Shown here: one piece after another, positions 20,014 to 55,029 of the stretch | How positions within the stretch are numbered: position 1 is the first letter of the stretch | Layout: each line of letters opens with the position of its first letter | IMG/VR virus record: IMGVR_UViG_3300021963_000029 | Coordinates: 116,815-180,814 of that record | Length of the DNA stretch: 64,000 nucleotides | Strand: one strand, 5' to 3' | DNA from: a virus | Notes under the pieces: generated by a model | The model's database searches: none | Told to the model about the DNA's origin: nothing | What the model saw: only the letters and a program-made list of their open reading frames with translations | Position numbers and translations under genes: made by a program

Positions 20014-20040
20014 AAAAAAAGGGGGAAAGTCAATCCCCCC
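20014..20040 (-). terminator. Rho-independent terminator
   Basis: On the minus strand GGGGG-ATTGACTTT-CCCCC is followed by TTTTTTT, a classic terminator placed after the riboswitch-controlled peptide genes. It separates them from the thyX operon. Confidence 0.75.
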
Positions 20041-20048
20041 TTTTAATC

Positions 20049-20150
20049 TTAGGCAACTTGTGGTTGCTTTGCCATGTTAATTTGTGCAGCATGAAGGAGT
20101 TTTTCCTTCTTATCTTTTCTCTTAAGATATCTTACAAAATAGGTATTCAT
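20049..20150 (-). CDS. Mini-protein behind the DUF4278-like gene
   Basis: The frame encodes 33 residues, MNTYFVRYLKRKDKKEKLLH then AAQINMAKQPQVA. An AGGA sequence precedes the ATG, and the start overlaps the upstream stop (ATGA), so it is translated with the DUF4278-like gene. The basic N-terminal helix suggests contact with nucleic acid or membrane. No family recognised. Confidence 0.55.
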   Translation of the reverse strand: MNTYFVRYLKRKDKKEKLLHAAQINMAKQPQVA

Positions 20151-20311
20151 TTTGCTTCCTCCCAATTCCAGTTATTGCATGGACGATAGGCAACACCACG
20201 ATACTTATTATGTGGATGTGCTGGTGCATGGGTCTCAGAATACCAATGTAGATATTCTTCTTTGGGTGCATCAGTATTATACTTGCACCCACGATATGTG
20301 GCTTGTGACAT
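20147..20311 (-). CDS. DUF4278-like small protein under riboswitch control
   Basis: The frame encodes 54 residues: MSQATYRGCKYNTDAPKEEY, a middle part, and NKYRGVAYRPCNNWNWEEAK. Two YRGxxY units are the mark of DUF4278-type proteins of cyanobacteria and cyanophages. AAGGAG lies seven bases before the ATG. Directly upstream is a glutamine-riboswitch-like RNA; short YRG proteins are, from memory, typical of the genes behind the downstream-peptide class of this RNA. The molecular role is unknown; a link to nitrogen status is inferred. Confidence 0.72.
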   Translation of the reverse strand: MSQATYRGCKYNTDAPKEEYLHWYSETHAPAHPHNKYRGVAYRPCNNWNWEEAK

Positions 20312-20318
20312 GGATTTG

Positions 20319-20338
20319 CTCCTTTACTAATGTAAAAG
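20319..20338 (-). promoter_or_regulatory. Anti-Shine-Dalgarno hairpin of the riboswitch
   Basis: On the mRNA CUUUUAC-AUUA-GUAAAGG can pair over seven base pairs and covers most of the AAGGAG ribosome site of the DUF4278-like gene. Its first bases (CUUU) can pair instead with AAAG at the 5' end of the aptamer, so the two structures exclude each other. Confidence 0.55.
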
Positions 20339-20400
20339 TGCGTTCCTTCGGTATCCCTACTTCCGTTTGCTATTTGCAAATAGCAAATGAACGTGCTTTA
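20333..20400 (-). ncRNA. Glutamine-riboswitch-like RNA (glnA / downstream-peptide class)
   Basis: On the minus strand the RNA contains CGUUCA, a perfect 22-bp inverted repeat (TTTGCTATTTG and its complement), then ACGGAAGUAGGGAUACCGAAGGAACG. The ACGGAAGUAGG and CCGAAGGAACGC blocks are the conserved core of the glnA and downstream-peptide RNA motifs, which bind L-glutamine. CGUUC and GAACG close the outer stem. It ends just before the ribosome site of a DUF4278-like gene. Identification is by recalled consensus. Confidence 0.8.
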
Positions 20401-20435
20401 TCTATAAGGATAATTTTGTAATTTTTGATACAGTT

Positions 20436-22508: not shown

Positions 22509-23774
22509 TTAAATTCTTACTGGATGTGGTCTACGTTTGTCTGATTTAACAGCACATAACCATGCTGTTGTTACTGCTATATTATCTTCCCACCAATTAG
22601 TTTCAAGTCTAAACTCTTGGAATCTAATTGTGGTGTTTCTAATAAATTGTGCTTTGTCTGCTCTGGTGTAATACCAGAAACTATTTTGATTCCAAAAACT
22701 CACATGGGTTGGATCTTGCCATGCTCCTCTACCATCAGTAGAAGGAACTTCAATGAATGCCCAACCACCATCACAAAGAACCCTGTGGATCTCACTCATT
22801 GATTTGACTGGATCCTTTAGGTGCTCAAGTACATGACTTGCATTGATAACACCAACACTATTATCTGGCAGAGGAATACCATCATTAAGATCACAAATAA
22901 TGTCAGCACCACACTGATCAATTGTCACATATCCTGGTCTTGGGAAAAGACCACCACCAATATCAACTTTCATCAGACCTTTTAGATCTGCATCTCTTTC
23001 TGCAAGAGCTTGTCCATATTGATGGAACAGTTCAAATGTTTTAATTTGAATGTCATCAATTCTTTCAGTTTGTGTGTTGTTGTTATCAGGAAGCCATCTA
23101 TAATAATATAGGATCTTATCAATGAAGTGAAACTTAGTATTCAAATAAGATCTAATTACTAATTCATGATCATCACAAATATTCAGATCAGGATTATGTC
23201 CACCAATCTGATGATAGAAACTGGTTCTCCATGCTCTTACATGATCAGGAGCATACCAAATAATACCAATACTATGACTAGTAGCAGGAAAACTGTCAAT
23301 CTTCATGAACTGTTCTCCTCTGAATTCCACCCACTTATGGGTCCACCCATTAGCAGCATTCCAAGGGATTTTATATTCATCCCCTCTCATATCATAAAGA
23401 AGATCTTCACTGTATGCAAATCCAACCTCAGGATCTTGGAAAGCATTATTAAGTTCTTCAAGACAATCTAAAGTCAACAGATCATCATGATCTACTTCAA
23501 CAAGAACATCTCCCCTTCCTAAAAAGAAAGCTTTGTTTTTAATAAACCCAACATTTGGATTAGTAATACCAGTGTGAATTCTAACCTTAGGGTGATCTCT
23601 AATTTCTTGAGGAATATGATGGAGTTTACAATCTCCATTTAAATACAAAACCCATTCCCAATTTTCATAGGTTTGGTCACGAATAGTTTCATACAATTCC
23701 AATAAGAAAGGCATGTTCTTAGAGCTATGCTCTGGTGTGATGATGCTAAATTTGTGATTAATCATATCAATCAA
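22509..23774 (-). CDS. Glycosyltransferase family 2 - methyltransferase fusion
   Basis: The protein has 421 residues with two domains. Residues ~5-240 are a GT-A glycosyltransferase: FSIITPEHSSKNMPFLLELY at the start, then VLVEVDHDDLLTLDCLEEL with the DHDD metal motif and NICDDHELVIRSYLN. Residues ~265-420 are a class I SAM methyltransferase: VDIGGGLFPRPGYVTID, NASHVLEHLKDPVKSMSEIH and LCDGGWAFIEVPS. The fusion suggests that a sugar is added and then methylated on one surface glycan. It overlaps the oxygenase-like gene upstream by eight bases. Confidence 0.85.
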   Translation of the reverse strand: MIDMINHKFSIITPEHSSKNMPFLLELYETIRDQTYENWEWVLYLNGDCKLHHIPQEIRDHPKVRIHTGITNPNVGFIKNKAFFLGRGDVLVEVDHDDLLTLDCLEELNNAFQDPEVGFAYSEDLLYDMRGDEYKIPWNAANGWTHKWVEFRGEQFMKIDSFPATSHSIGIIWYAPDHVRAWRTSFYHQIGGHNPDLNICDDHELVIRSYLNTKFHFIDKILYYYRWLPDNNNTQTERIDDIQIKTFELFHQYGQALAERDADLKGLMKVDIGGGLFPRPGYVTIDQCGADIICDLNDGIPLPDNSVGVINASHVLEHLKDPVKSMSEIHRVLCDGGWAFIEVPSTDGRGAWQDPTHVSFWNQNSFWYYTRADKAQFIRNTTIRFQEFRLETNWWEDNIAVTTAWLCAVKSDKRRPHPVRI

Positions 23775-53298: not shown

Positions 53299-53370
53299 TG
53301 GGAATACTGGGAGTTGAACCCAGACTAAGCCCTTATAAGGAGCCCGCTCTAACCATTAAGCTATACTCCC
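53299..53370 (-). tRNA. tRNA-Ile(UAU)
   Basis: Acceptor stem GGGAGUA/UAUUCCC, D-arm GCUU...GAGC, anticodon arm GGCUC-CUUAUAA-GGGCU (anticodon UAU with two wobble pairs), T-arm CUGGG-UUCAACU-CCCAG, discriminator A. CCA is not encoded. UAU reads AUA directly; most bacteria use a modified CAU tRNA instead, so this form is uncommon in hosts and suits the AT-rich phage codons. Confidence 0.88.
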
Positions 53371-54958: not shown

Positions 54959-55029
54959 AGCGGGTAAGGGGATTCGAACCCCTGACTACAACTTGGAAGG
55001 ATGGTATGTTACCACTACACCATACCCGC
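54959..55029 (-). tRNA. tRNA-Gly(UCC)
   Basis: Acceptor stem GCGGGUA/UACCCGC, D-arm GUGU...ACAU, anticodon loop CUUCCAA (UCC), T-arm AGGGG-UUCGAAU-CCCCU, discriminator U. The anticodon stem (CCAUC/GUUGU) has two mismatches, U-U and C-U, so function may be weakened. CCA is not encoded. Confidence 0.85.

Follow-up and report, generated by a model that had tools for sequence, protein, structure and literature searches.

The glutamine-riboswitch locus reported here lies on the minus strand of the window, that is, the whole 64,000-nt stretch of viral DNA that was analysed. Judged by its sequence, the window is of a T4-like cyanophage: its wider gene complement includes speD, thyX, an nrdC-like gene and other cyanophage genes. 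Further elements in the window are: PhotoRC-II and wcaG cis-regulatory RNAs, which are typical of T4-like cyanophages, at 30472-30380 (-) and 53204-53106 (-); tRNA genes at 551-634, 53299-53370 and 54959-55029; a 421-aa ORF at 22509-23774 (-), which gives the impression of a glycosyltransferase-methyltransferase fusion. The features of the locus itself are as follows:

20401..20406, minus strand: putative -10-like hexamer TATAGA, 7 nt before P1, proposed from the sequence and related leaders
20396..20399, minus strand: AAAG, 5' half of a previously proposed P1 extension, probably promoter or extreme 5' end
20337..20395, minus strand: glutamine-I (glnA) riboswitch aptamer, from the RF01739 match and the MFE fold
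20393-20389/20345-20341, minus strand: aptamer P1
20387-20379/20374-20366, minus strand: aptamer P2, a perfect 9-bp hairpin
20357-20356/20351-20350, minus strand: aptamer P3, GG/CC with a GATA loop
20366-20355, minus strand: ACGGAAGTAGGG, named in the original prediction
20351-20341, minus strand: CCGAAGGAACG, likewise named there
20338-20335, minus strand: CTTT, 3' half of the proposed extension
20321..20338, minus strand: anti-Shine-Dalgarno (anti-SD) hairpin CUUUUAC-AUUA-GUAAAGG, predicted SD pairing probability ~0.74
20319..20324, minus strand: Shine-Dalgarno sequence AAGGAG
20312..20314, minus strand: UCC box before the AUG, candidate OFF-state partner of the GGA in GAAGGAACG
20147..20311, minus strand: 54-aa DUF4278-related gene (MSQATYRG...), ATG at 20311
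20049..20150, minus strand: 33-aa second gene, overlapping the 54-aa gene
20017..20044, minus strand: intrinsic terminator, 11 pairs followed by a T run, at the end of the unit

The Rfam family RF01739 (Glutamine/glnA) matched 20395-20337 (-) with 53.5 bits (E 6.2e-9; gathering score 35 bits) in a cmscan of the whole 64 kb, and model positions 1-53 were all aligned. In our own search of the 180.8-kb virus record this was the only RF01739 match (n=1). The covariance search with the glnA model, which the original prediction had proposed as a check, thus returned a full-length match above the gathering score; with both of its named strings present on the minus strand, its recognition of a glutamine-type riboswitch in a phage is borne out. 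The MFE structure of 20395-20333 is the three-helix aptamer P1/P2/P3, with core strands CGGAAGTA and GAAG, and the folding z-score of this single strand is -2.07. On its sequence, the element is a single canonical class I glutamine riboswitch aptamer of a T4-like cyanophage, and it would be expected to bind glutamine.

Transcription probably starts near 20395 (+/-2), judging from the sequence; the TATAGA at 20401..20406 was not among the hits of a generic sigma-70 scan. The start codon of the 54-aa gene follows P1 at a distance of 29 nt. Its product matches DUF4278 (PF14105) with 20.0 bits (E 9e-4), below the curated cut-off of 25.3, and phrog_5049 with E 6e-10; among 18 phage relatives of the protein, 14 match DUF4278 at E <= 0.01, the best with 5e-7. 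By sequence it is a relative of DUF4278 rather than a formal member, and to this extent the DUF4278-like downstream gene foreseen earlier is indeed present. A search for its function via solved structures gave no result. The 33-aa product of the second gene shares 58% identity with a protein whose gene, in other phages, comes immediately after a glnA aptamer. Since the locus has a probable promoter and a terminator of its own, the riboswitch and the two tiny genes appear to make up a short transcription unit of their own that encodes glutamine-linked mini-proteins.

For comparison, leaders were gathered from at least 120 viral loci found by the canonical aptamer pattern and 80 loci found by protein; 90 distinct single-aptamer leaders were collected among the matches listed, and several unrelated small-gene families stand behind them. 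Folding of these leaders shows that, for most families of downstream genes, the SD is held in a hairpin, the 5' strand of which begins 0-2 nt after P1. The arms of this hairpin differ between families: CACCU/GGGUG; CAUCUUUCU/AGGAGGGUG; CACUUUUAC/GUAAAGG; CUCUUUA/UAAGGAG. Within the gene type of the window, the pairing is likewise kept through base changes (CUCUUUA/UAAGGAG, CUCUUUAAC/GUUAAGGAG, CUUUAC/GUAAAG and CUUUUAC/GUAAAGG), which upholds the earlier claim of a hairpin that hides the ribosome site. The hairpin is weak in the MKxKNNWQL gene group and missing from most of the Prochlorococcus-phage leaders inspected. Because SD-pairing hairpins recur behind P1 while their sequences vary, the anti-SD hairpin is, on the sequence comparison, a real conserved feature. 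Among the small proteins encoded directly after glnA aptamers are DUF7196-like ones (GTSGY...NKGK), unrelated to DUF4278, in L122, L014, L045 and others.

A link between this hairpin and the aptamer is suggested by the unconstrained fold of the window leader. In its MFE structure (-27.4 kcal/mol) the 3' strand of P1 pairs with the SD region, compared with -24.2 kcal/mol for the fold with P1 formed; the free fold lengthens the anti-SD hairpin by GC/GC and GGA/UCC. We defined a CC box as CCU, UCC or CCC within 9 nt of the AUG: it is present in 35/44 single leaders that belong to this gene type or to two related ones, in 69/77 composite leaders (described below) and in 2/38 control genes of these phages that have an identical SD, an enrichment that is to be read as a strong pattern and not as a p-value, because the leaders are related. 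As the box is missing from all 46 leaders of other gene types (0/46), the coupling of the CC box to the 3' strand is not general. When P1 is formed or the 3' strand hidden in an ensemble model, the mean SD pairing for this gene type falls from 0.72 to 0.68, a drop so slight that the model alone demonstrates no switch; the GGAACG strand is invariant, and its proposed pairing is therefore beyond covariation testing. These models give weak support to a coupling of the aptamer 3' strand to the start-codon region.

In the mechanism that we propose, a short mRNA for two very small proteins would begin directly with the riboswitch. Without glutamine, the aptamer 3' strand (GGA, GC) would pair with the start-codon region (GC, UCC) and make the anti-SD hairpin longer; with glutamine, the 3' strand would be pulled into P1, the hairpin would be shorter and the gene would be translated. 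The outcome would be translation switched ON at high host glutamine. We regard this overall reading, of a class I riboswitch with an SD hairpin, 3'-strand coupling and an ON response to high glutamine, as probable, and on our analysis the ON direction of the window switch, taken by itself, as fairly likely.

An OFF switch, or an anti-SD hairpin independent of the aptamer, such that glutamine keeps translation off or matters little, would be in keeping with several of the same observations: the hairpin starts 0-2 nt after P1 and could stack on it; SD pairing is nearly unchanged when P1 is forced; the hairpin is clear of P1 both in the window and in most families. However, the cyanobacterial glutamine riboswitches that have been studied are ON switches before DUF4278 genes (PMC6316151), and we consider such a reading unlikely. 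More generally, in cyanobacteria glnA aptamers are found mainly with DUF4278 genes, whose expression is activated (PMC6316151), and translation is activated by glutamine (PMC6316151, PMC11288750).

A different mechanism for ON regulation had been put forward in the original prediction: P1, stabilised by the ligand and lengthened by AAAG/CUUU, would capture the CUUU from the anti-SD hairpin and thereby free the SD. The window has the complementary strings, as do 5 other leaders of its gene type. Nevertheless, among the matches listed, full AAAG/CUUU pairing is found in just 6/26 leaders of the type and in 0/64 others. When P1 is forced, folding with the extension gives -22.7 kcal/mol, against -24.2 kcal/mol for the fold that retains the hairpin, so that the extension costs 1.5 kcal/mol relative to the hairpin. 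Moreover, an upstream promoter scan by consensus matching puts the end of a -10-like hexamer, or of a T4 late TATAAATA, 6-10 nt ahead of P1 (CGTTC) in most leaders; 25 leaders (e.g. L009, L014, L024, L045) have the T4-type late promoter TATAAATA, which ends 6-9 nt from the glnA aptamer. Given this spacing, transcription should begin at the edge of P1, without a 5' extension, and AAAG, at or upstream of the probable start, is probably untranscribed or hardly transcribed. Rarity, energetics and promoter geometry all speak against the extension as the switch, and capture of the CUUU by a longer P1 is very improbable. Hence, the mechanism first proposed for ON regulation is not supported, while its direction remains likely by homology with the cyanobacterial switches. 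As a separate observation, some phage glutamine riboswitches may belong to late transcripts and others to early ones.

That the window RNA is a glutamine-II (Downstream-peptide) riboswitch, or a glnA variant for a different ligand, is a far-fetched reading: the two families have strands in common and were both named in the original prediction; yet RF01739 matches at full length, whereas RF01704 (Glutamine-II/Downstream-peptide) has no match at the gathering score within the 64-kb window, which makes the RNA a glutamine-I aptamer and removes the downstream-peptide half of the motif as first described. Scarcely credible is a non-working, decayed relic of a composite element, which precedes the same gene in many relatives and, in S-PM2, a related gene at the same position between speD and thymidylate synthase, since the core, P2 and P3 of the window aptamer are all intact and near-identical single aptamers precede the same gene in further contigs.

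This composite riboswitch is the form of leader seen in many orthologs of the window gene, with the layout CGTTCA-P2a-CGGAAGTAAG-CCGACTC-GGAACG-GAT-CGTTCA-P2b-CGCAAAAGCCGACT-GAAGGAACG. A scan with the composite pattern gave at least 120 further stretches, and parsing of the matches listed gave 151 distinct versions out of 183 loci, some of which overlap (same contigs). Representatives are:

L144:2878-2973: composite riboswitch
L003:3955-4055: composite riboswitch of S-PM2, flanked by speD and thymidylate synthase like the window locus
L325, about 1285-1745: composite riboswitch of P-SSM4
L325:1300-1713 (P-SSM4) and L326:1308-1717 (P-HM2), also L126, L131 and L134: ORFs embedded in the P2 loops

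In the composite, a glutamine-I core arises only when the 5' strand that comes first (GGAAGUA) is combined with the 3' strand that comes last (GAAG GAACG); RF01739 aligns L144 in this way at 44.3 bits, P3 carrying an insert of 48 nt. P3 is thus a long helix that spans the entire inner part, whose strands come in the order of a circularly permuted glutamine junction. Covariation is seen along this helix: each of the 76 distinct versions forms the pair c6-6 (U-A 50, G-C 22, A-U 2, U-G 2), against 54 in the best of 5000 shuffles; the pair c3-9 is formed in 76/76 as G-C, A-U or G-U; two P3 positions mostly carry an A.C or C.A mismatch. On a tree built from the downstream genes, changes of the 5' P3 base are matched by the 3' base in 8/8 supported independent contrasts (p 0.008), the best tree holding 21 independent P3 contrasts. 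RNAalifold, unprompted, predicted the outer P1, P2a, the inner GAACG/CGUUC hairpin and P2b; P3 was not predicted. Under the nested model 96.3% of the pairs are formed and covariation is 0.279, against 0.069 when shuffled and at most 0.058 when slid. A non-nested tandem was tried and rejected: its first strand set would be without GAAG and its second without GGAAGUA. The nested form is preferred over a tandem because the halves are incomplete, because RNAalifold gives nested P1s and because a covarying P3 joins the halves; as the P1 strands themselves do not vary, a kissing-tandem form is still conceivable, though less likely. It is therefore well supported that the composite is an outer glutamine-I aptamer with P3 extended into a second junction. 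Just ahead of the composite, inverted repeats (GGTCTATAATAGACC, GTGTTATAATTAACAC) lie over the -10 region in L003 before 3957 (S-PM2), L325-L327, L329 and L330; those of P-SSM4 and P-HM2 read GTA-N8-TAC, which is a form of NtcA sites.

The composite core is present in 46 phage records, a count that includes duplicate RefSeq/GenBank entries; its carriers include S-PM2, P-SSM2, P-SSM4, P-HM1/2, P-SSM7, Bellamy, P-TIM68 and S-SSM7. The exact pattern was found in 0 of 84,980 host genomes. Host copies were rejected: the few protein matches in MAGs or SAGs look like co-sequenced phage. Contigs (L336, L339, L340) in MAGs labelled Dehalococcoidia, Rhodospirillaceae and Acidimicrobiia carry the cyanophage gene and its leader, and are probably phage contamination of these bins. 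A literature search, with most subscription papers outside its reach, found no description of the composite, which is apparently a new, undescribed variant of the glutamine riboswitch.

Among the matches listed, an ORF opens P2b in 84/151 versions, P2a in 30 and both in 20. In most versions the P2b ORF encodes 50-53 aa (phrog_504); it starts in or beside the base of P2b and, in 82/84, ends with a TGA exactly across the border of P3 and GAAG. Its protein is evidently under selection, since third codon positions are the most variable and dN/dS is ~0.31 (a crude estimate, with the RNA core excluded). The P2a ORF starts 10-13 nt into the composite element and encodes about 66-70 aa, often signal-peptide-like, or phrog_6471. 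In P-SSM4 (PSSM4_169.2, 169.3), P-HM1/2, P-SSM7 and S-SSM7 the embedded ORFs are annotated as hypothetical. No P2-embedded ORF was found in the 135 single aptamers examined (0/135) or in a targeted scan of single aptamers, and the window's own virus record has no homolog of the embedded ORFs at E 0.1. We are aware of no riboswitch whose aptamer encloses conserved genes, and the literature search, with most subscription papers beyond reach, found none. In textbook cyanophages, the best-defined part of a riboswitch, the aptamer, is in many cases opened to house protein genes.

It is possible that embedded and downstream genes alternate in translation, because the embedded starts need P2 to be open and because ribosomes stopping at the TGA would cover P3 and P1. 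Glutamine binding would then silence the embedded genes and allow translation of the DUF4278-like gene downstream, while ribosomes on an embedded gene would disrupt the aptamer. Such a reciprocal toggle, set by glutamine, between genes inside and outside a two-junction composite is a tentative proposal, and the toggle function is speculation. As several of these phages and their hosts are in culture, the composite is directly testable.

Glutamine riboswitches have been described in T4-like cyanophages (PMC9964418, PMC9602691, PMC10665884), including S-CREM1 (PMC9964418; annotated in OP535465) and S-H34 (PMC10665884), and in Melnitz and Mosig, of pelagi- and methylophages (PMC9004378). Hence, a viral glutamine riboswitch is not new, and pairs of glnA and DUF4278 in cyanobacteria are likewise published. 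The window adds one phage to those that may sense host nitrogen status through RNA.

Compared with known systems, the window RNA resembles the glnA RNAs (RF01739) in its full-length match, its three helices and its core GGAAGUA and GAAG, and those of cyanobacteria also in the DUF4278-type gene downstream; it differs in being a phage copy, apparently with a short anti-SD hairpin as translational platform. The gifB riboswitch of Synechocystis, which controls IF17 (PMC6316151), shares the aptamer class and a DUF4278-type coding region, but the phage protein has 54 aa and aligns with only the DUF4278 part of IF17. IF17 is the cyanobacterial glutamine-synthetase inactivating factor and its DUF4278 part is dispensable for function (PMC6316151), so that a label of glutamine-synthetase inhibitor for the phage protein would be premature. 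The S-CREM1 glnA RNA is also from a cyanophage and its small downstream gene is 46% identical over 38 aa to that of the window; however, it has the composite nested form, annotated as one 99-nt glnA, whereas the window has the simple form. Glutamine-II (RF01704) shares the small downstream genes, and its strands CGUUCA, CGCA and GGAACG are similar to those of the composite's inner module; however, the window has no match to it at the gathering score, and the inner module would be circularly permuted and, with 23 bits, is below the gathering score. Finally, the tandem glnA RNAs (Weinberg 2010, PMC2864571) resemble the composite in having two glnA strand sets per leader, but in the composite the strands are interleaved, with a core made of the 5' strand of the first set and the 3' strand of the second, and the halves are joined by the covarying P3.
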